The notes under the pieces were generated by a model. That model had not been told where the DNA came from, did not search any database, and worked only from the letters and a program-made list of their open reading frames with translations. Positions 3,768 through 27,484 of a stretch of DNA of 27,567 bases are shown in pieces. The position numbers were made by a program, and so were the translations under genes. The number at the start of each line of letters is the position of its first letter. Positions within the stretch are counted from its first letter, which is position 1. The DNA is from a virus, in the IMG/VR virus record IMGVR_UViG_3300031746_000134, positions 1-27,567 of that record. One strand, given 5' to 3'.

Positions 3768-5330
3768 TTAAAGCTTATGCAATTGATCTCTTTCTTCCTG
3801 AGTCATTTTGTAATAATCTTGACGACTAACAAATCCGCGAGCCTTTCCAACTTTTGCAGTATTCAATGTGTTATATTTAGCATCAAGATCATCCATTTGG
3901 TTATTCACCTTATGACCTTTAAGTTGTGCTTCATTATTAAATTGACTTTCTTTTACCCTGAAAATCTGAGCAGTGTTAGCTGCCATGTTTGCACCTTTCT
4001 TTTCTTGAAAATCAGCAGAAGCAATACCTTCATTCATATTGTAACGTTGCATATCTTGTTCGTATTGAGCACGAACTTGATTGGCAGCAGCAATATTAGC
4101 CATTGAATCTTGACCTTGCATATCCCAAAGAGATTGAGATATTTGATTGATACCAGCAACAGTGTTCGCGTGAATACCAACAATTTTGGATGGATCACCC
4201 ATCTCTCTAATAATTTTAGCATTACGTCTTTCTCCTCGCTCAAGATCTGCAGTAGCTTTTGTTTTCATTCCTTGATAGTCGCGAACCATTTCACGATTAA
4301 CAACCATGTTAGGTTGAACACCAGGATGACGACCTTTAGAAGCGTTCCATCCAAGCATTGCAAGATTAGCACCAATTTCCTGATTAGCGTTCTTATCGTT
4401 CTTTGCAAGAAGATCTTCTAAATGCTGTTCATCTGGGGTTAATCCTTCTTTCTTTGGAGTCATTGCCATTACAGCTTCTTGCCATCCAGGAATATTATTA
4501 TCAGCAGGAAGTTGAGCTGAAGGTTTTTTTTCGCTATTATAAATATCCTGGAAAGTACGAGGTTTCATTACAATATTTGAATCAGCACTAGGAGCTACGT
4601 TTGGATCGTATCCAGGTAAATCAAATTGTGGTAAACCAGTATTGTCATTTTCCGTTCCTGTCCATTCTTCGTTTCGAACAAGATCAGGAGCCATTGAAGA
4701 AAGTGTTTCTTGAGGATCATATCCTTCTGGGATATTATAAACCCTAGAAGCTTCTGCGTTTGGAGCTGTACTAACTTCATTTCTAACTCCTATCTTATTT
4801 CCTTGATCATCATAAACTGACTTATCAGTAAACTTTTGAGAATTTCTAAAAGCATCAGGTTGGACACTATCAGTAGAGCCGGCATCCTGATAAGAAGGAT
4901 ATTGATTGTTATTGTTCATCATTAATTCATACATTGACAAACCACCACCTTCTTTAAATTCACCTGCTCTGTTCTCAGGAGTAGTTCCTCCATTAACTCT
5001 TTGGTTATATGGAGAATTAGGAGAAAGATGTTCTGGATCAATTCCTCTTGCTTTTAATTCAGCTACCTGCTGTTCATTCAAAAAGTATTCTTTAGAACTG
5101 ATTCTAATATCAGCTCCTTGACCGCCTCCTTGATTCATACTTACATTTACATTCGGATCATATCCCATATCAGCAACTAAAGCTTTTGCTTTATCAACAT
5201 TTTCGTAAGGAACAACATGACCAGAACCAACGTTCATGATTTTATCATCTGCTTTTGGATGACCATTACCAGGAACAACTCCGTAAGAAGCCCCTCCATG
5301 TTTTGCTGTCATTTGATTAAATATACTCAT
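3768..5330 (-). CDS. Cargo/ejection-like protein, 520 aa
   Basis: Three regions can be seen. Residues 1-130 are Gly/Asn-rich with a compact segment (about residues 73-107, containing ADIRISSKEYFLNEQQ) of the kind I associate with tail-barrel cargo proteins of Bacteroidota phages. Residues 130-290 are Pro/Asn/Asp-rich and probably disordered. Residues 290-520 are almost entirely helical and rich in Gln, Ala, Asn and Met, with a heptad-like character. There is no signal peptide, membrane segment or catalytic motif. It begins 3 bases after the upstream Gly/Ala/Met-rich gene, so the two are very likely co-expressed. A long helical C-terminus following a small ordered head suits an ejected internal virion protein, by analogy with short-tailed phages generally. 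Exact function is unknown. Confidence 0.75.
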   Translation of the reverse strand: MSIFNQMTAKHGGASYGVVPGNGHPKADDKIMNVGSGHVVPYENVDKAKALVADMGYDPNVNVSMNQGGGQGADIRISSKEYFLNEQQVAELKARGIDPEHLSPNSPYNQRVNGGTTPENRAGEFKEGGGLSMYELMMNNNNQYPSYQDAGSTDSVQPDAFRNSQKFTDKSVYDDQGNKIGVRNEVSTAPNAEASRVYNIPEGYDPQETLSSMAPDLVRNEEWTGTENDNTGLPQFDLPGYDPNVAPSADSNIVMKPRTFQDIYNSEKKPSAQLPADNNIPGWQEAVMAMTPKKEGLTPDEQHLEDLLAKNDKNANQEIGANLAMLGWNASKGRHPGVQPNMVVNREMVRDYQGMKTKATADLERGERRNAKIIREMGDPSKIVGIHANTVAGINQISQSLWDMQGQDSMANIAAANQVRAQYEQDMQRYNMNEGIASADFQEKKGANMAANTAQIFRVKESQFNNEAQLKGHKVNNQMDDLDAKYNTLNTAKVGKARGFVSRQDYYKMTQEERDQLHKL

Positions 5331-6383: not shown

Positions 6384-9300
6384 TTAGTGTTTTGATTCTC
6401 TAAATGCTGTTAATACAGATTTTATAAAGATATTATTTCTAGTCTTATATTCCAATCTTATTTTAATCCAACGACCACGAAGACGGCTATCAACACCATA
6501 GATATTGTTTACAGGCTCGTGTAATTGCTGAGTTCTGATAATTGGAATACGCCATAAATTTTCTTGGTATATTGGATCTCTCCAAAAATTTGTTTCATCT
6601 CCAACTCTCCATGGAAAGTGCTCTGAAAACTGATGTTGTGTTTCATAAACAGCTTTGTAAAGATCATCAGGAGAAGAACTGATGTGCATATTATCAAACA
6701 CCTTAGATATATCAGCAGGTTCCTTTACAATGAACTCTACATAAGAAATATCTGGTTCAGGTTTGCCAAAGAACACAGTAGCATTCTCCACGCCTCCAGA
6801 AATTTTTATATCCTGGATCCATGCATCTCCTGCATTATTAGGAACGGGATTCATACTTGGAAATATATCAGGATTGAATAAGAAGAAATCCTCATTAATA
6901 GTCAATGACATTGGAGACGTTGCTGTTCTTTCACCGTGGAATGCAGATAGCCATTCATTGAAAACAATTGTCTTTCCATTCCTAGAGAAATCACAATCAC
7001 CCGGAACTAATGGATTTCCGTTTATCCAAGTAAAATAAATGTCATTATGTTTTCTGTCGTAATGAGCAACAACACCTGCCGTACAAACAGGATTATCAGC
7101 TAGTAGTTCTGTAATGTCAGAGTCTCCAGAATTGATCTCACACAACGAATGCAGTTCAGATCTATAACCGTAGTTGTCACTTGTCATTTCTACAGATAAA
7201 TTACCTTGAGATTGAATTATTCTCCATAGTTTTCTCTTATTATAATCAACGCCATAAATAGATGTATCAGTTGAAATGATAGACCACATGTGTTGAGATC
7301 CAACAAAGTCACTCATGTTTAAATGTTTCTTATCAAGAATATCACCTGTACCAAGAAGTAACTCACCTGCCGAAACACCATTATTCAAAATAGCTTTTTC
7401 ATTTACAAAATGACGATTGACTCCAAATTCTTGAATTGAAATAAGTACGTTATTAAGAACCATTAATCTTGCAATTTTTCCAAGTCTAAAATCGTAATCA
7501 TTTATCGCGTTAAGATCAATCATTCTGTATCCATCAACAAAAGAACCAAGAACATGCTTATTACTATACATGATACCTGCTGGTTTTTTCTCAGCAACAA
7601 AAGGAACTTCTCTATCAAATCCACCATAAAATTTTACTGATAAAACTTCATTGTAACCACGGTTTAAATCTTGAGATTCTTTTTCAATATTTTTTACAGC
7701 AAAATCATAAATGTTAGCTCCTGATCCTGGAAAGAATTTATTGACAACATTTTGAAGTCTCATTTCTGTATTGATCTTGTTCTCAGTTATAATACTAAAT
7801 GAAGTTCCAAACGTAAACAATCTTTCTCCGATTATAGTTTCTAATGGTCCCGGCCAATCAACGTCAAGTAAGCCTCCTCCATCGTCTTTTACACCAACTC
7901 CATACTTAGGGTTAAATAATTGTTTTAACCATGTTCTTTGAAGAAAACAATCTCCTCTATAGAAAACTGTATTATTGATGATTGACGGATTAGCAACCAC
8001 ATCAGCTATCTTAAAGAATTTAGAAATCTTATAATAGTTTGTAGCTTTAAGATCGTACAAATCAGCTATATCAAAAACAGATGGATCAACATTTGTTTTA
8101 TAAACATTACTCAAAGAATATCTTAAATCTTCAGCAGACTTCATTCCAATATAAGAATTCCAAGCCATTGCATGATTTCTTACTTCAATGTATTTCTTTC
8201 CTAATAAGTTTTCAGCAAAGAAATAAAAGTTGCTATTAAAATCTGTTTTTGCTCCTTCATTAAAGAAAGAAGAGAATCCATTATTATTAGCAGGTTCCCA
8301 TTCTTTTATATTTGAAATGTCTGTTAAATTTTTAGAGTAAGTTGAAAATGTATAAACATTATCATTGTAATAATAGTCAGGCTTACTAGCACCAGATTCA
8401 TTAAGAATAGTAAAATCTACTTTAGCAAATGGCTGAACAAAACCTTTAGATATTTCTAAAGTTTTATTAAAGAAATGATCAGGAGAATAGAAGCCAAATC
8501 GATCATCAATTCTTTTGTTTAATTTCTTATGCCAGGATACAAATGTAAATTCATTATCAAACAAAGCACTATAATCAATCCTGTGTATGTAAGGAAATTG
8601 AGCACCATTATCATCGTCCCCTTCTCTTTCGAACATCGGAACAAAATTTTCATTTCTTCTTAGTGTTTGAGGAAAGTCAGGAAGTAAAAACCAAATACCA
8701 CGAATATCTAATCCTGTAGCGGCATTGTAACACGGAATAGTTAATCCTTGGTAAAGAAGAGTTTCATTTCTTTTAGCACGAACAAAATAGAATCCAGAAA
8801 CATTATCAAGAAGATACTGTGGAATTGAAGAAATAGCAGATGTTACATCAAACTTAACACCCATTATTCTTACATCATTTCCGACTACCGTAGGCGATAT
8901 ATTAATGTTTGGAAAGCGATATACACCATTAATGTTTGAGGGACCGGTAGATCCACTGTAATCATCAATTCCTTCTATTGGAAACGCTTGTGTTTCTCTT
9001 CCATTGTTAAGAACACAAACAATACCATACGCATAAGCTTCACCTCTAAAATGTCCTGTATAATTATAGACATTCATTTCGTTGTTGTAAATACCTCTAA
9101 ATAAACCACCTGATATATGTGGTAATAGTTTTGAGTCATCGTATTTAGGCGTTATCTTTTGAGCAAAATCTAATATTGCATTAGCAGAATCATTATCATA
9201 TTGCGTTGTATCAAATAGATCAGCAGCAAAATATCTATTCTCTAATTGAGTATGAGTAATTGCTCCGTCATATTTTGGTTTTGTTTTAATCAACTCCTCA

Positions 9301-10304
9301 AAGCCAATATCAAACATCCCTTCAAATCCTGTAATTTCTATATCTAAGGTTGTTATGTTTGGATCAATGTGGTAAAATTTATCAATGATACCAAACTCTT
9401 GAGTGTCATTAAATGAATAGATGTATCCAAGTTCTAAATATGAATAGGTTGTGTCAAGATTATCAAAACTTAATCTTATACTTTTGTCCGTAATTCTGCC
9501 ACCCAAAAGACCGTGATGGCTTATTCCTTCATTAGCATAAAGACCTGCAGTTATTTGTATAGCATTTGTTTCTGTAAAAAAAGAAGTCCTATCAAAGCTT
9601 TCTGTCGCGTACCTTGCAAAGAATATCCAGTTACCAGCCTTAACTGAACCAGAGCTTCCTAAACCATTAAATTGTACATCGATATGGTTTTCACTTTCGT
9701 GAAGCATATTTACAACGTTTGGAAATGAATTGTTCCAATATCTTCTTGCTAAAGAATTGACAACTCCATTTTTATCAAATCCAGAATTTATAACGCGTAA
9801 AGGATTATTTCCACTTGCTAGATAAAGGTTTATAGAACCGTCATAATCCTGTCTTGCAAACATATCAATCTGGTAATTACAATCAAAGTTGAAAAGACTT
9901 GTTGTAAAAGGTTGATTTAAAGAAGCCGGATCTCTTGATGGATTACCTCCTGTAAAGTTAAATAATGGAGCATAACTTTTAGTAGCACCAAAACCTGTAA
10001 GTGAAACGTTTTGATTTACAAGAGCAGCCGGAGCTGGATAACATCCTATTTCACCAAGACCTGTATCTGGATTAACTGAAGCTATATATCCAATACCATT
10101 ATACTCACATTTTCCAATTGGAATAAATCCTTTGTTTAAAGCAAATCTATATTCATTACCACCAATATTAGTAACAACAAGACCTTTACCATCAACATCA
10201 AGAAGTCTGACATTTTTCATCCTTCTAGCCGTATCGTTTGAAAGCTTTAAAATATCAATATCTCTATTGTCGCCTTTTAAAAATTCATTTATTTGTACCG
10301 CCAT
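6384..10304 (-). CDS. Muzzle / tail stabilization-like protein (crAss-like), 1306 aa
   Basis: This is the largest complete gene. The protein is beta-rich throughout, with many aromatic and Asn/Asp residues and no signal peptide. Near the N-terminus, residues 60-91 carry FIPIGKCEYNG, IGYIASVNPDTG and GEIGCYP. I associate this block with the large stabilization or muzzle protein of crAss-like phages, which closes the distal end of the short tail; their members are also about 1000-1400 residues. No coiled coil or tape-measure character is present. It lies between the SET-domain gene (3-base gap) and the ejection-like gene (12-base gap), the expected place between connector/ring proteins and cargo. 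The family call relies on remembered motif similarity. A receptor-contacting role for the middle region is possible but not shown. Confidence 0.65.
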   Translation of the reverse strand: MAVQINEFLKGDNRDIDILKLSNDTARRMKNVRLLDVDGKGLVVTNIGGNEYRFALNKGFIPIGKCEYNGIGYIASVNPDTGLGEIGCYPAPAALVNQNVSLTGFGATKSYAPLFNFTGGNPSRDPASLNQPFTTSLFNFDCNYQIDMFARQDYDGSINLYLASGNNPLRVINSGFDKNGVVNSLARRYWNNSFPNVVNMLHESENHIDVQFNGLGSSGSVKAGNWIFFARYATESFDRTSFFTETNAIQITAGLYANEGISHHGLLGGRITDKSIRLSFDNLDTTYSYLELGYIYSFNDTQEFGIIDKFYHIDPNITTLDIEITGFEGMFDIGFEELIKTKPKYDGAITHTQLENRYFAADLFDTTQYDNDSANAILDFAQKITPKYDDSKLLPHISGGLFRGIYNNEMNVYNYTGHFRGEAYAYGIVCVLNNGRETQAFPIEGIDDYSGSTGPSNINGVYRFPNINISPTVVGNDVRIMGVKFDVTSAISSIPQYLLDNVSGFYFVRAKRNETLLYQGLTIPCYNAATGLDIRGIWFLLPDFPQTLRRNENFVPMFEREGDDDNGAQFPYIHRIDYSALFDNEFTFVSWHKKLNKRIDDRFGFYSPDHFFNKTLEISKGFVQPFAKVDFTILNESGASKPDYYYNDNVYTFSTYSKNLTDISNIKEWEPANNNGFSSFFNEGAKTDFNSNFYFFAENLLGKKYIEVRNHAMAWNSYIGMKSAEDLRYSLSNVYKTNVDPSVFDIADLYDLKATNYYKISKFFKIADVVANPSIINNTVFYRGDCFLQRTWLKQLFNPKYGVGVKDDGGGLLDVDWPGPLETIIGERLFTFGTSFSIITENKINTEMRLQNVVNKFFPGSGANIYDFAVKNIEKESQDLNRGYNEVLSVKFYGGFDREVPFVAEKKPAGIMYSNKHVLGSFVDGYRMIDLNAINDYDFRLGKIARLMVLNNVLISIQEFGVNRHFVNEKAILNNGVSAGELLLGTGDILDKKHLNMSDFVGSQHMWSIISTDTSIYGVDYNKRKLWRIIQSQGNLSVEMTSDNYGYRSELHSLCEINSGDSDITELLADNPVCTAGVVAHYDRKHNDIYFTWINGNPLVPGDCDFSRNGKTIVFNEWLSAFHGERTATSPMSLTINEDFFLFNPDIFPSMNPVPNNAGDAWIQDIKISGGVENATVFFGKPEPDISYVEFIVKEPADISKVFDNMHISSSPDDLYKAVYETQHQFSEHFPWRVGDETNFWRDPIYQENLWRIPIIRTQQLHEPVNNIYGVDSRLRGRWIKIRLEYKTRNNIFIKSVLTAFRESKH

Positions 10305-10307
10305 GAT

Positions 10308-12173
10308 TTATGGATTATTTCTTAATGTTGGTGTTGGATTTCTATTCATTACCCAATCAGTTTCTTTTTGAGGAGGAACTCTAATTGCTGTATTTTTTGG
10401 TTTATTAAAAGCATTTAAAGGTATTCTTGCACCAACTTGTATTCCTGGTTGCCATTTACCTTGAACTTTTCCAGCATCAGATCCACCTTCAATTGTTTTT
10501 CCTGCTCCAGGATTATAACGCATACTTGCTTCAGCAGAAAGTCGTAAAGGAAATCTAAATGGCTGAACCTCAAATTTACCTGAAGCACCATAGGTTAAAC
10601 CTGCTTTTGTGTTATTAACATCTCCTTCTTTTCCACTTGCAACATCAACTCCTTTGCTTCGGTAGTAAGCACCAAGTTCAGGCCCTACTTCAGCTCTCAT
10701 TGCACCTTGCTTCCATTTTTCATTTCTGTAAGTAGGAAGACTTTTATTTGCAAACTGAAGTTTATAACCTCCAGCAAAGTCAGCATTAAAACCTAAGTTT
10801 GGATCAACTCCTGCACCGACTCTACCTTCTGCTTGACCAAACACTCCGTTAGATACTTCTTTAGGATCAGTTCTTAAATCCATTTTTCCATAAAGAGAAG
10901 GGGCTTCTCCTGAATATGGAGCATTTACATCTACGGTTCCTGTAGCGTTAAGGCCTATGTTCTTCATCGCGTTGCCACCGATATTACTTTTACCAATAGT
11001 CAATCCGAAGCCAGGAGCTTGTTCTTCATTTGATTTAGAAGCTAGTCCTTGCATGTTTATGCTTAATGGAGAAGCTTGAGCAAATGTATTTTTAAGAACA
11101 GCACCTCCAAATTGGAAACCTCTCAGCATGTCAAAGATTACAGGACCACCCATTGAATGTTCTTGATATGGAGTTCCTTTTCCATAAACAGGAAATAATT
11201 CATCTTTACCAAGAAGTTTTTTGTCCTGGTACATGTTGAAGTATGACTTGTTAAAATCCTTATCAACAACAACATGCTTACCATTTATATTATAAACCGG
11301 AAGACCGCTATACCCTTCTGTAGGTGTTGCTAATTGATATTGGTCTTTATTGTAAGTGCTTGCACCTGGAACGAATATTCTGTCGTTATTCATCGTAGGA
11401 TATCCTGTAACATTCATTGTATTCAGTTTGCCCAATGAAATAGGTTTGTCACCATTCATCATTGGATTAGCATTCATCCAATCCATTGTTGCTTGATGTG
11501 CAGGATTGACAACAGGCTCAGTTCCTCCGCCATCTTGCATTCCATAAAGAGCACTTGATTCAGGAACATGCTTCTTGTAATTCTCAGCAAAATATTCAGC
11601 TTCTTCTGGCGTATTGAATTTAATATCTTCAGAAGAAGGTTTTGGATTTTCATTGTATTCTAATTCAGGACCACCTTTATCTTGCAGTAACGGAACAGCA
11701 TACTTACCCATACTTGCCATGTAATGAGTTCCTTCTCCTTCTGGAGTCATTCCGGTCTTGGGATTTGGGCTTAACATTCTTTTAGCAGCAGGGTTTCCTA
11801 ATTCAGCAGCAATAGCCATACGACCTCTTGACATTCCATCCATTATAGAAGGACCTCCATCTTGCATCATTCTAGCAATGTTTGGTTTCCCAAACCCTTC
11901 TGGCTGTTCAAGTTCTGGTTGCTGTCTGTAATCAACAGTAATTTCTTCTCCTTTTTTTAAATTACGAAGAGGAAGGACAAGTCTTTTATTTCCAACCTTC
12001 TTGCTAATAGAATTTGGATTATCAGAGTGATTATAGTTCTCACCTATATCTTTTGTTGGCCAATCATTAATATGAGCAACACCGATATTTTCTCCGGCTT
12101 TTAAATCCTTGGCAGCCATAAGACCTTTACCCTGGATTTCAGATTTTCCAATTGTTGTTTTAAGCTTTCTCAT
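10308..12173 (-). CDS. SET-domain protein with C-terminal beta-barrel-like region, 621 aa
   Basis: Residues 9-82 match the SET methyltransferase fold in order: GKGLMAAKDLKAGE (15-28, SET-N), NHSDNPN (48-54, the NHSxxPN motif of the S-adenosylmethionine/knot region) and LRNLKKGEEITVDY (69-82, SET-C with the closing tyrosine Y82). The insert between SET-N and the NHS motif is only ~20 residues, far shorter than in typical SET enzymes. Residues 95-220 are Met/Pro/Gly-rich with two QDGG motifs (104-107, 213-216). Residues 126-200 include GEGTHYMAS and a short helix (EEAEYFAENYKK). Residues ~340-360 carry MGGPV and FQFGG. Residues ~387-590 form about nine Gly-rich stretches with alternating polar and hydrophobic residues, as in outer-membrane barrels, ending GIQVGARIPLNAF. 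There is no signal peptide. The start shares one base with the upstream stop (TAATG). The SET homology is well supported; barrel and virion location are inferred. Confidence 0.75.
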   Translation of the reverse strand: MRKLKTTIGKSEIQGKGLMAAKDLKAGENIGVAHINDWPTKDIGENYNHSDNPNSISKKVGNKRLVLPLRNLKKGEEITVDYRQQPELEQPEGFGKPNIARMMQDGGPSIMDGMSRGRMAIAAELGNPAAKRMLSPNPKTGMTPEGEGTHYMASMGKYAVPLLQDKGGPELEYNENPKPSSEDIKFNTPEEAEYFAENYKKHVPESSALYGMQDGGGTEPVVNPAHQATMDWMNANPMMNGDKPISLGKLNTMNVTGYPTMNNDRIFVPGASTYNKDQYQLATPTEGYSGLPVYNINGKHVVVDKDFNKSYFNMYQDKKLLGKDELFPVYGKGTPYQEHSMGGPVIFDMLRGFQFGGAVLKNTFAQASPLSINMQGLASKSNEEQAPGFGLTIGKSNIGGNAMKNIGLNATGTVDVNAPYSGEAPSLYGKMDLRTDPKEVSNGVFGQAEGRVGAGVDPNLGFNADFAGGYKLQFANKSLPTYRNEKWKQGAMRAEVGPELGAYYRSKGVDVASGKEGDVNNTKAGLTYGASGKFEVQPFRFPLRLSAEASMRYNPGAGKTIEGGSDAGKVQGKWQPGIQVGARIPLNAFNKPKNTAIRVPPQKETDWVMNRNPTPTLRNNP

Positions 12174-12916
12174 TACCCAACGTTTCTTGACATTTTAACT
12201 TTAGGAACCAAGTTGTGCATGATTCTTTGGATCTCATTCATGTCATCGCGTGTAACGTGACGGAACGAAGTTTTAGATTTGCTTACATAATGACCAAGAC
12301 GATCCTGTAAGAACATAAATCTATTCTCAGGAACAAGACCATTCATGTAGTCTTCGAAATAAAGCTTTGTCATGCAGTACCAAAAACAAGCTTCTTGATT
12401 TCCATCAAGTATCATTGGAAGACCTTGATCATCTACCATTACACCAAGGTAATCGATAAAGACTGTGTATTCACTATTGAATGTAGATGGATCATCAAAG
12501 TTGAACTTCAAATAAGCACCATCCCAATTGTATTTTGCAATAGAGCATTTGTTTCTGTGAACATTTAAAAGTCGATAAACATTACATGGCATGTAACCTT
12601 TATTGAACTTAACAGGAATCTCAACGTTTCTGTATTGAGCAAAGCCTTCATACATTCCGATTTCATCCGTTTCACACTCTCCACACCATTCAGCGATATC
12701 CCAAATATCAAATTCTTTTCCTTTGACGTTTCGAGCTATTCTTGCCGCGACGTTTTGAACGGTAACATATTTTCCAGATCCAACTTGTTCAATAGATGTA
12801 GCTTCGAAATTTCCAGGTGTACCATCTGAACATGGAACGTTTATGGAATTTGTTCCTCCACAATCAGCAACATTCTTGTTAACTGTGTATGCTGGGTTAT
12901 CGAAATTACTACTCAT
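12173..12916 (-). CDS. Probable ring/connector (neck) protein, 247 aa
   Basis: This soluble protein of 247 residues has no signal peptide or membrane segment. The N-terminus (FDNPAYTVNKNVADCGG) is Cys/Gly-rich. Residues 48-64 (GKYVTVQNVAARIARN) are followed by a CxxC pair (C78, C81) in AEWCGECETDE. The C-terminal third is helical and basic. I do not recognise a named family. Its place in the chain of small genes between the capsid protein and the muzzle-like protein fits one of the stacked ring or connector proteins of crAss-like short tails. It is translationally coupled to the SET-domain gene through a TAATG overlap and follows the 150 aa gene after one base. Confidence 0.6.
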   Translation of the reverse strand: MSSNFDNPAYTVNKNVADCGGTNSINVPCSDGTPGNFEATSIEQVGSGKYVTVQNVAARIARNVKGKEFDIWDIAEWCGECETDEIGMYEGFAQYRNVEIPVKFNKGYMPCNVYRLLNVHRNKCSIAKYNWDGAYLKFNFDDPSTFNSEYTVFIDYLGVMVDDQGLPMILDGNQEACFWYCMTKLYFEDYMNGLVPENRFMFLQDRLGHYVSKSKTSFRHVTRDDMNEIQRIMHNLVPKVKMSRNVG

Positions 12917-13782: not shown

Positions 13783-14448
13783 TTATTCTACTCTACTTTG
13801 TTTTTGAAGTGCATCAGGAGCACTATCACGCCCTTCATTTTTCTCATCAGGTCCAATTTGAATCAGACTGGTGAATTGTTGTATTACGATAAGCTCCAAT
13901 TTATGTACAAGATGACGAGCAATTGGAAATGGATCGTCTTCACTACAAATATTTCTTGGATCCTCAAAGACCGCAATTAAACAAACATATTTTAATCCCT
14001 GTGTAGGGAGATTTTTCAAAATTGCCTTATCATCTACTAATGTAAATGTAGGAACTTTTCCTGTATATTTCTCATATCCAGAAAACATAAACCCTTGAAA
14101 GTTTGACCTTCTAAAAGGATGCATTTTATCAACCGTTCCAAAGTATTTGATACCGTCTTGTCCAAGACTGGCTTCAATTTTAGGAATAGTGATGTAAAAT
14201 TCTTTAACTCCAGAATCAATACCGTTGCAAACCAAATTGCCACATTGAACTTCAAGACAGCATTCTGTAGTAAAATCTTGATCATTTATTTTTTTGAATT
14301 GTCGATACTCATCTTTTAATAAAACAGATCTAACATCCCAACACTTATCGTAGATGAGCTGAATGTCGATTCTTTCATCGTCACCAGAAAAGAAACCTTT
14401 AATTTGATTTCTGATACTGTATCCTACTTCTGCAAGACTTTTTGACAT
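13783..14448 (-). CDS. Probable ring/connector protein, 221 aa
   Basis: This soluble alpha/beta protein of 221 residues starts with a helix (SLAEVGYSIRNQIKGFF). Cysteines cluster at C63, C64, C69 and C74 (ECCLEVQC, NLVC), with another at C36. The C-terminal ~35 residues are polar and probably flexible. No enzymatic motif or named family is recognised. It follows the small membrane-protein gene after 10 bases and precedes the 133 aa gene by one base. In tailed phages, proteins of this size between the capsid gene and the tail tip are usually connector, stopper or ring subunits; that role is inferred from location. Confidence 0.6.
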   Translation of the reverse strand: MSKSLAEVGYSIRNQIKGFFSGDDERIDIQLIYDKCWDVRSVLLKDEYRQFKKINDQDFTTECCLEVQCGNLVCNGIDSGVKEFYITIPKIEASLGQDGIKYFGTVDKMHPFRRSNFQGFMFSGYEKYTGKVPTFTLVDDKAILKNLPTQGLKYVCLIAVFEDPRNICSEDDPFPIARHLVHKLELIVIQQFTSLIQIGPDEKNEGRDSAPDALQKQSRVE

Positions 14449-17251: not shown

Positions 17252-18706
17252 TTATGCCTGTGGTTTGTAAACCTCTGCAAATCCGAATGGATTCTTCAAG
17301 CAGATACCTGTCTCAGACAAGATTTGTACTTGGTATCCATCAACTGAATTTGAAGCGAATTCACGACGACCTGTTCCTTGAGGAGTTGACATACCGTCAA
17401 TCACCTTCTTAACATATCGACGATCATCAGATCCGTTTCCTAAAGAAACTAAATCAACGTTTGCATCACCACCGATTGTGTTACCAAGAGACATGAAGAA
17501 TCCACGGTAAGACTCAAGGTTTACACCAAAGATGTCTTTTGATTGTGGTCTCCAAGCAGCGTCCATTGCTTTATTCCAAGCAACAACCAATTTAACACCA
17601 CCCATTTCGTAGCTGTTAAATGCAACTTTCACACCTTTTGCTTTGTCTTCTTCAGACACAAACAATGGAAGTGGATTGTATTTGAATACATCACGCATCA
17701 AACGTTGGAAATTCCAAACGAATGCTTGACCACCCATTACAAACACCTCAGTCATACCATCGTTGTTAGACAACAATTGTAAGTTCTGCATGATGTTCTC
17801 TAACGTTTTCACGTTCATGTTGTTGTACTGGAACTTCAATGAAGAATCTCCTTGTGCAACAATACCGTCACCTTGAACGATATCACGACCTTTCAAGTCT
17901 TTCAAGAAGACATTATCGTTAGCATCGATAGATGCCTTACCGAAAATCAATTGATTCTCACGAGCATAAGCCCAACGACGAAGCATGTCCATTTCTTGTT
18001 GCTTGAACCACAACTTTTGACCATTGTGCTCAACCCACAATACTGTATTCTGTGCAGAACCAGAGATTGAGAATTGCATACGTTGGATCGTCATGTAATT
18101 CGTGTGCCATTCAGGGAATGTATTTTTTTCGTAACCTGTCTCTGACAATTCAGGGAAGGCAGTGTAGCTGAAACCAACTTCTTTACCAACAGCAAGTAAC
18201 GTAGGATCAACCCATCCTCCAGATACATTCGTTACAAGTTTACACTTGTACTTCCAGTTTCCAGAACCAACTTCGATTGGATACTCATCCATGATCTGAA
18301 CGATTGTTCTACGATCACCTAATTCCAAGGTATCATTTGGAGAGAAGAAATTTGTATCCAACGTGATGATGAATACAGACTGATTTGAACCTGGTTGTGC
18401 CGTAGCAGCTCCAGAAGCGTCAGTAACCGCAGCAGTCACCATACCTTTACGGAATGGATAACCTTTCAAAGCCCACATGAACTTTCTGTTACCAATCACT
18501 TTGAAGTCAGATGTTTCCATTCCTGGAGCCAATCCTTTCTTCGAATACCCACGTCTCGCAAGGTATGAAGAGAATGCTGTAAAGTTGTCCTCGAACAAAT
18601 TCACAACATTTGATGCGATCTCCGGGCGTGTCAGCAATGCTGCAGCTAATGAGTTCGTCATCGTTGTTCTGTTGGCATCGAATGTGCCTGTACCGATAAT
18701 TTTCAT
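17252..18706 (-). CDS. Major capsid protein (HK97-fold, crAss-like), 484 aa
   Basis: Length (484 residues), position directly after a scaffold-like gene and portal, and overall composition all fit the crAss-like major capsid protein, which is about 490 residues. The N-terminal ~50 residues are helical (LAAALLTRPEIASNVVNLFE), followed by alternating beta segments and a long central helix (RRWAYARENQLIFGKASID). Later regions (VFVMGGQAFVWNFQRLMRDV and GVKLVVAWNKAMD) look like the A-domain of an HK97 fold. Codons are more regular and G/C-richer than in the cargo genes, as expected for the most abundant virion protein. The start at 18706 follows AAAAAAAGAATA, an A-rich leader without Shine-Dalgarno sequence. 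Identification is from context and character, without a search. It assembles the shell on the scaffold and portal. Confidence 0.8.
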   Translation of the reverse strand: MKIIGTGTFDANRTTMTNSLAAALLTRPEIASNVVNLFEDNFTAFSSYLARRGYSKKGLAPGMETSDFKVIGNRKFMWALKGYPFRKGMVTAAVTDASGAATAQPGSNQSVFIITLDTNFFSPNDTLELGDRRTIVQIMDEYPIEVGSGNWKYKCKLVTNVSGGWVDPTLLAVGKEVGFSYTAFPELSETGYEKNTFPEWHTNYMTIQRMQFSISGSAQNTVLWVEHNGQKLWFKQQEMDMLRRWAYARENQLIFGKASIDANDNVFLKDLKGRDIVQGDGIVAQGDSSLKFQYNNMNVKTLENIMQNLQLLSNNDGMTEVFVMGGQAFVWNFQRLMRDVFKYNPLPLFVSEEDKAKGVKVAFNSYEMGGVKLVVAWNKAMDAAWRPQSKDIFGVNLESYRGFFMSLGNTIGGDANVDLVSLGNGSDDRRYVKKVIDGMSTPQGTGRREFASNSVDGYQVQILSETGICLKNPFGFAEVYKPQA

Positions 18707-25859: not shown

Positions 25860-26354
25860 TTAGATTTCTATTTCAACAAACTTATTCATTAAGCACCAGT
25901 TATACAAATCTTCTGGTGTAAATGTATATGGTTTTTCAACGCCATAAACCCAGGCAACAAACTCAGAGCAAGTCATGGCTGAATCAAAATTCTTTTTTTG
26001 TCTCCATTTCCCAGTGATAAGTTTTATTGGATAACGAAGAATAAAGGAAACGAAATCGTATGCAGTAACACCTGTCTTTGTAGCAGCTCTCATGCATATC
26101 GCTTTTTCAATAACACCTTCAGGATGGCGAAACACGCGAATGTCATATTGATATTTATTATCCCAAGCAAGAAAAGGTCGGCTATTAATCCCATCGTTTT
26201 GAGCATCCATCACAGAAGGAATTCCCCATTGTTCAATGTAAAGTGCAGCATGAGAAAAACGAGATCTAGTGACCTTCATTATGATCCTACTCAAGAACCT
26301 GTGTCCTGTGCAGATTAGAATATCTCCTGGTTTAAGATTCTGTAGATTCATCAT
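25860..26354 (-). CDS. YiiX-like (NlpC/P60 permuted papain-fold) cysteine hydrolase, 164 aa
   Basis: The order of motifs fits the YiiX/YebB-type permuted NlpC/P60 family: an opening KPGDILICTG (8-17), then SRFSHAALYIE with the catalytic His H35, and later SAMTCSEFVAWVYG with the catalytic Cys C129. The permutation puts His before Cys, the reverse of canonical NlpC/P60. Members cleave amide or ester bonds, often in peptidoglycan or lipids. There is no signal peptide. The start overlaps the holin-like gene by 23 bases, and MM gives two possible first codons (26354 or 26351). With holin-like and spanin-like neighbours, an endolysin role is the best inference, though processing of a virion or host protein is possible. 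Confidence 0.7.
   Translation of the reverse strand: MMNLQNLKPGDILICTGHRFLSRIIMKVTRSRFSHAALYIEQWGIPSVMDAQNDGINSRPFLAWDNKYQYDIRVFRHPEGVIEKAICMRAATKTGVTAYDFVSFILRYPIKLITGKWRQKKNFDSAMTCSEFVAWVYGVEKPYTFTPEDLYNWCLMNKFVEIEI
25877..25908 (-). promoter_or_regulatory. Candidate promoter for spanin / transpeptidase genes
   Basis: On the minus strand, TTTG (25908-25905) is followed after 20 bases by TAAGTTTG (25884-25877), a full match to the Bacteroidota TTTG / TAnnTTTG promoter. It lies inside the last codons of the YiiX-like gene and ends 28 bases before the ATG of the spanin-like gene. It could give that gene and those following it a separate transcript start. Confidence 0.5.
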
Positions 26355-26601: not shown

Positions 26602-26909
26602 GGTGTATTTATTCCTTTTTTTGCAAGTGCAATTACTAATACATTTACATTCTTGGAGAGTTCTCCAACATTTTCACTCATGACTCTTAATTCCAATTGA
26701 GTCATTGCTTCAATTCTTTTTGTGTCATTTATTTGTTGCTGTTCAACTAATTCAATTCTTCCTTTGTTCTTTCCGTTCTCATCAACAACTTGTTTTAAAT
26801 CAGATACCATTCTGTTTAAAAAAAATCCAATAATAGAAAAAGAAAGTACAATAATAAATCCAGCTATCCCAATCACAAACCAAAGGGTTCCGTCATTCAT
26901 TTGTTCCAT
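26598..26909 (-). CDS. Small membrane protein with coiled coil (holin/antiholin-like), 103 aa
   Basis: One N-terminal membrane helix (residues ~9-31, WFVIGIAGFIIVLSFSIIGF) is followed by ~60 residues of charged coiled coil (VSDLKQVVDENGKNKGRIEL onward). The arrangement resembles haemolysin XhlA-type phage proteins, but with the membrane helix first. The start sits in a TAATG overlap with the ferritin gene, so it is probably translated by ribosomes finishing ferritin. It precedes the two-helix holin-like gene with a 4-base overlap. It may be a holin partner, an antiholin or a spanin-like protein. Confidence 0.55.
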   Translation of the reverse strand: MEQMNDGTLWFVIGIAGFIIVLSFSIIGFFLNRMVSDLKQVVDENGKNKGRIELVEQQQINDTKRIEAMTQLELRVMSENVGELSKNVNVLVIALAKKGINTP

Positions 26910-27484
26910 TATTCACCCATTTCATTGTCCAACAATCGAAGAGCCGATCCTTCAGTTCCAAAGGCAGTTAACTTGTCAGTCCAAGTTTGCATTTTGTCAT
27001 GCTCTTCAACTTGTTCTTTTAAATATTTCAAACACAATTCATAAAGAATGTGATCTCCAATTCTCATTGCATCAGTAGCCATTTTCTTTATCTGAGTACT
27101 CACTTCTACTTCATGATCAAATGACTTCTTTATAATTTGAGGTAATCCACCAAAGGATTCTTCTGGTTGCTTTAAAGCAGGTGTACATGGTGTAACTCCA
27201 AAAGAAAGAAGATATGTTCTTGACCAATTGGCATGTTCCATTTCTTCATCAGAATATCTCTTCCACAATTTAGCAGCCCCCATGAATCCATTGTTATTCA
27301 GCCACATCGACATCGCCAAATAGATCCTTGCAGAAAACTCTTCCTGCTCAATTCTATAATTTAAAGAATCAATACACAAATGTGATATTAGTGGATTCTT
27401 TGTTACACCAGGAGAAGAGTTGCTTGAACTTTCTTTGATTCCTGATAATCCTACTACTGCTGGTTTATTTTCTCCTTCTGGCAT
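26909..27484 (-). CDS. Bacterial-type ferritin (FtnA-like), 191 aa
   Basis: The core aligns well with bacterial non-haem ferritins, which oxidise and store iron in a 24-subunit cage. Ferroxidase positions are intact when laid on E. coli FtnA: E48 (E17), E81 and H84 (E50, H53, in DEEMEH), E125 (E94, in DHEVEVSTQI), Q158 with E160/E161 (Q127, E129, E130 in LKEQVEEH). Helix A reads LNYRIEQEEFSARIYLAMSM, and the C-terminus (LRLLDNEMGE) matches the short E helix. A ~30-residue Ser/Gly-rich N-terminal extension is added to the usual ~165-residue family length. The next Met is M58, so the start at 27484 is required. It lies two bases after another gene and overlaps a holin-like gene (TAATG), so it is in the phage operon. 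An iron-store or oxidative-stress role during infection is inferred. Confidence 0.9.
   Translation of the reverse strand: MPEGENKPAVVGLSGIKESSSNSSPGVTKNPLISHLCIDSLNYRIEQEEFSARIYLAMSMWLNNNGFMGAAKLWKRYSDEEMEHANWSRTYLLSFGVTPCTPALKQPEESFGGLPQIIKKSFDHEVEVSTQIKKMATDAMRIGDHILYELCLKYLKEQVEEHDKMQTWTDKLTAFGTEGSALRLLDNEMGE

Follow-up and report, generated by a model that had tools for sequence, protein, structure and literature searches.

Results

A shortened SET domain at the head of a crAss-like tail-operon protein

The first 95 residues of a 621-residue protein, encoded among the tail genes of a distant crAss-like phage, form a genuine but shortened SET domain. The gene occupies 10308..12173 on the minus strand of the window, the 27,567-nucleotide stretch of viral DNA analysed here, and the domain itself occupies 11889..12173. 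The SET fold methylates proteins in animal and plant cells; to our knowledge, most SET enzymes described are eukaryotic or belong to a few bacterial effectors with eukaryotic targets. An earlier note had proposed an N-terminal SET domain here from the SET-N, NHSxxPN and SET-C motifs, which fall within residues 1–82 (12173..11928, minus strand), and had named a profile search of residues 1–90 and a structure prediction as suitable checks; both agree with the proposal. The Pfam SET profile, PF00856, matched residues 1–90 with 33.6 bits (E = 5.5e-8; curated cut-off 22.4) and the whole protein with 26.4 bits (9.9e-6), while an NCBIfam search gave nothing useful. A profile of 52 phage SET domains, searched against solved chains, found human MLL1 (1.2e-14) and the algal-virus enzyme vSET (1.8e-10). 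The AlphaFold2 model of the domain, made with the same alignment of phage SETs, had a pLDDT of 86.9 and a pTM of 0.77 and showed a SET fold; its best Foldseek match in the PDB was vSET (E = 2.5e-6, TM 0.66), and the best 50 of 166 matches with E ≤ 1e-3 were all SET enzymes or complexes containing them. UniProt already labels a 971-residue viral protein of the same fold 'SET domain-containing'.

The idea that a structural protein of the phage looks like SET in these motifs merely by coincidence is contradicted by the Pfam match, the modelled fold, the Foldseek results and the matches to solved chains, and we consider its probability negligible. We rejected it on a shuffle control, in which the profile drew solely on 45 phage SETs from outside the crAss group so that the test was independent of close relatives: the real 90 residues scored 80.1 bits, against 12.8 bits for the best of 20,000 shuffles.

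Conserved motifs and a reduced insert

The GxG, NHSxxPN and GEExxxxY motifs occur in the window protein in SET-family order and at the residues given by the earlier note. G15-K16-G17, in SET-N (12123..12131, minus strand), is presumably the AdoMet-binding position, as judged from general knowledge of SET domains; NHSDNPN, residues 48–54 (12012..12032, minus strand), would form part of a putative AdoMet pocket; and GEEITVDY, residues 75–82 (11928..11951, minus strand), ends in the presumed catalytic Tyr82. Eight positions, S11, G17, G44, N48, H49, G75, E77 and Y82, are invariant across the 52 diverse phage SETs, and G15 (50/52), S50 (51/52), P53 and N54 are almost so. In crAss-type SETs, and in these alone, the three motifs are followed by a PELEQP post-SET signature, residues 86–91 (11901..11918, minus strand), of which P86, E89, Q90 and P91 are invariant in alignments A4 and A5. 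H34 is likewise invariant in the crAss-type group and is replaced by R in some other SETs; it may be an active-site substitute.

SET codons are under strong purifying selection, with dN/dS of about 0.06–0.1 in pairs with dS below 1.5. The values were dN 0.122 and dS 1.49 for the window and L003, 0.040 and 0.67 for L122/L128, 0.029 and 0.36 for L123/L128, and 0.023 and 0.35 for L139/L141. Because the AdoMet and catalytic positions are invariant across very different protein architectures, the chemistry is presumably retained, and the reduced domain would then bind AdoMet and be catalytic.

In known SET enzymes the SET-I region lines the lysine channel. The full insert is absent from the window SET, in line with the small insert described in the earlier note: the Pfam alignment spans profile positions 1–17 and 63–104 of 105 and skips the middle, and the phage SET profile has 82 positions where vSET uses 102 residues, a shortening of about 20. 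As insert length varies within the SET family, we keep the window SET in the family, as a reduced variant.

Position in the tail operon and in related crAss-like loci

Four products of the window exceed the Crassvirales profile cut-offs, namely the major capsid protein (17252..18706; PF23898, 4.5e-41), ring protein 2 (13783..14448; PF25702, 1.5e-11), ring protein 1 (12173..12916; PF24228, 8.3e-22) and the muzzle protein (6384..10304; PF25731, 1.7e-44), all on the minus strand. The major capsid protein is about 25% identical to those of gut crAss-like records, and the window is, on these gene matches, a distant crAss-like phage. Ring 1 and the muzzle flank the SET gene, within the phage late structural operon in which the earlier note had placed it, and the SET ATG overlaps the ring 1 stop codon (TAATG).

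The same order, ring 1, SET, muzzle (lineage 1), was found in L003/L118, L012/L119, L013/L121, L094/L129 and L120, the last with a lone 109-residue SET filling the slot. Loci of a second crAss-like lineage, among them L091 and L122, have the order ring 1, muzzle, SET-mosaic; in L091, Pfam identifies ring 1 (3.8e-12) and muzzle (7.8e-20). A TAATG or TGATG overlap with the upstream gene marks the start of the SET reading frame in the window and in 25 of 25 loci inspected, the partner being ring 1 in lineage 1 and the upstream gene (the muzzle where identified) in lineage 2. The SETs of both lineages form one clade (support 98/88, 25 rows), separate from the cupin-fused podoviral and standalone marine SETs in a tree whose short alignment leaves the deeper forks weak. 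A search of the deposited-phage collection returned no crAss-type SET-mosaic.

A conserved head on a shuffled mosaic

When six full-length relatives were compared, almost only the SET domain and the adjoining PELEQP were conserved, and SET is the sole domain that Pfam recognizes in the window protein. Behind it, residues 102–211 (11541..11870, minus strand) form a 'GNPAAKRM..GTHYMASM..YAVP..EYFAENYK' module shared by 19 viral loci, mostly inside other mosaics, and a 'GQWxHPG' module that follows SET in L012/L013 stands at the head of other mosaics. Module edges lie near GG. An MQDGG linker occurs in the window protein at residues 103–107 (11853..11867, minus strand) and at residues 212–216 (11526..11540, minus strand). 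Of the inner ends of local alignments, 48% fell within six residues of a GG, compared with 11% of random positions. A recurrent motif of module edges, [YF]Q[DEKN]GG, occurs 22 times in the 27 A5 mosaic proteins, where shuffles predict 0.23; it may serve as a flexible linker or be cut by a protease.

In other SET-mosaics Pfam identified Amidase_2 (L134), SLT with LysM (L140), SLT with a PG-binding domain (L135), GNAT (L147) and ART-PolyVal (L136), and gave a weak lysozyme-like match in L122 and L123. The shared module also turns up in mosaics without SET, for example with an ADP-ribosyltransferase in L104 and a chitinase-type hydrolase in L114. The SET domain itself is internal in L149 (at about residue 663), L147 (about residue 84), L102 and L113. 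A lysine-rich module frequently follows SET in lineage 2; it is missing from the window protein and also occurs without SET, in L099 and L110. The SET domain is a mobile module of a mosaic protein family and the only part of it conserved between phages, the rest being shuffled.

The variable C-terminal region of the window protein, residues 381–621 (10311..11033, minus strand), resembles an outer-membrane beta-barrel by eye only, the full-length model (pLDDT 32.6) being too poor for use. Similar glycine- and aromatic-rich stretches were seen by eye in the C-terminal parts of the L013 and L139 mosaics, and a phage-delivered barrel is one possible interpretation of their appearance.

SET domains in other phages and in bacteria

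Short SETs like that of the window are widespread among unrelated phages and also occur in some bacteria. A pattern scan of IMG/VR showed that at least 383 stretches, among the 599 candidates listed, encode a relative. Three architectures were seen: standalone proteins of about 100 residues in marine phages, cupin-fused proteins in podoviruses, and the crAss mosaics; the PELEQP tail is absent from the first two. Standalone SETs lie beside baseplate genes in cyanophage P-RSM6 and between nrdB and talC in P-SSM7, and clustering of their neighbours revealed no single partner gene. In the podoviral form (L004, L005, L008, L010, L018, L027, L041 and others) SET is C-terminal to a cupin-like domain, in a gene directly downstream of the DNA-stabilization gene, where P22-like phages have their needle and ejection genes. 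In Vibrio and Alteromonas phages, the cupin part by itself carries the annotation 'short tail fiber protein' or 'RmlC-like jelly roll'. The small protein encoded at 6240-6764 in L156 combines EF-hand/dockerin-like repeats, recognized by eye, with a C-terminal SET.

A standalone 122-residue SET is encoded in flavobacterial chromosomes of some marine Bacteroidota (L176-L179, around 4959-5327) in a conserved neighbourhood, and is a cellular counterpart of the phage domain. Two PHROGs families of unknown function, phrog_28741 and phrog_34170, contain the same short SET as the window and are matched by 46/52 and 49/52 A2 members respectively; their profile lengths, 100 and 296 positions, are consistent with the standalone and cupin-fused podoviral forms.

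Discussion

Relation to known systems

The closest characterized enzyme is vSET of PBCV-1 (A612L; PDB 1n3j, 3kma), a minimal viral SET with the three motifs in the same order, which differs in its longer insert and in being a single-domain algal-virus enzyme acting on histone H3. The setting of the window protein resembles that of the polyvalent proteins, described by Iyer et al. (2017; PMC5512222) as large late-gene mosaics of phages and conjugative elements with peptidoglycan hydrolase, ART and GNAT domains, and proposed there to enter the host together with DNA. SET-mosaics have a like mixture of hydrolase, ART and GNAT domains and a like place among late genes, and L136 includes ART-PolyVal itself. 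They differ in that their modules are joined at GG linkers and that none of the 27 SET-mosaics has a Pfam metallopeptidase. The combination of several domains is found in close architectural relatives, the window protein showing SET only, whereas the location among late or virion genes applies to the window gene itself. We class the window domain as a reduced SET-family variant in a polyvalent-like setting.

In phiCrAss001, cargo zones in tail and capsid store the cargo protein gp45, encoded after the muzzle gene gp44 (PMC10172136). Virion-packaged gp45 and gp46 are encoded just after the muzzle, in the slot of lineage-2 SET-mosaics, a likeness of position; no SET is reported in them, and the window SET gene precedes the muzzle. 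Among open-licence papers and the main text on polyvalent proteins we found no SET domain in crAss-like phages or polyvalent proteins, and the open-licence papers yielded nothing relevant on either SET domains or lysine methylation in phages. A text match to 'SET domain' in a crassvirus structure paper proved to be an immunoglobulin C2-set domain.

Possible roles of the SET domain

Our best reading is that the domain is a reduced protein methyltransferase that uses AdoMet and forms one module of a mosaic protein delivered by the virion, a view that we hold tentatively, at somewhat below an even chance, because packaging, activity and target all have to be inferred. The tail-operon position, the start–stop coupling and the cell-wall-hydrolase partners suggest that the mosaic protein is a component of the virion or part of the cargo it carries, and the amidase, SLT, LysM, GNAT and ADP-ribosyltransferase domains added by relatives underlie its resemblance to injected polyvalent proteins. 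The SET-mosaic would be produced along with the tail proteins, beginning at the start codon that overlaps the ring 1 stop, and, with SET as its conserved head, would most likely leave in the tail or cargo compartment of the virion and enter the cell with the phage DNA. There, the variable modules behind SET might help envelope crossing or act on the cell, while SET would methylate some protein of the newly infected host at an early stage, a role analogous to the supposed action of the GNAT and ADP-ribosyltransferase modules of polyvalent proteins. A stronger form of this proposal, in which the virions of a family of environmental crAss-like phages deliver a minimal protein-lysine methyltransferase that modifies a bacterial protein, such as one of transcription or defence, just as infection begins, with SET as the fixed part of a package of exchangeable effectors, is conceivable but doubtful. 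Against our best reading, the lysine-channel residues of known enzymes are partly missing with the reduced insert, SET alone is recognizable in the window protein, and the deposited-phage collection yielded no crAss-type SET-mosaic. Nor does the domain by itself imply delivery, since standalone relatives occur in non-structural contexts (P-SSM7) and in flavobacterial chromosomes.

Delivery would be unnecessary if, in the cell that makes the virions, SET methylated lysines in ring 1 or the muzzle as parts of the tail machinery, or in its own mosaic partner. Such a role in tail assembly or stability would suit the start–stop coupling, which joins SET to ring 1 in lineage 1 and, in lineage 2, to the gene upstream (the muzzle where identified), and the sufficiency of a lone SET in the L120 slot. 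However, SET-less mosaics follow the same kind of muzzle in L099, L106, L107 and L110, so that muzzles as a rule do not depend on the modification, and we think this role unlikely on the whole. The lysine-rich module that often follows SET in lineage 2 might seem to be its substrate, but we do not favour it as a dedicated one, given its occurrence without SET and its absence from the window protein. The domain might instead be non-catalytic, as the earlier note had allowed, and serve for docking or cofactor sensing, holding variable cargo on the tail. The constant N-terminal position of SET before hypervariable C-termini is what an anchor would look like, and the reduced SET-I insert, with only one channel tyrosine evident from the alignment and general SET knowledge, counts in favour of this option. 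Against it speak the AdoMet and catalytic positions, which do not vary between hosts or architectures, the occurrence of SET alone in L120 and internally in L149, L102 and L113, and the SETs in non-structural phage regions and bacterial chromosomes, where no anchoring is needed; we judge it unlikely.

If the domain is active as a methyltransferase, protein methylation would be added to the activities that a virion may carry, its very small SET scaffold would be of use in enzymology, and an entry point to prokaryotic SET function would be opened. The conserved, GG-joined mosaic offers a way into the cargo carried by crAss-like phages that have not been cultured.

Other genes in the window

A ferritin-domain gene (26909-27484, minus strand; PF00210, E = 2.5e-22) lies at the edge of the crAss-like contig. 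The gene at 25860-26354 (minus strand) gives a weak match, just under the cut-off (5e-5), to Peptidase_C92, the YiiX-type permuted papain-like amidases, and its product is a candidate envelope or lysis enzyme.
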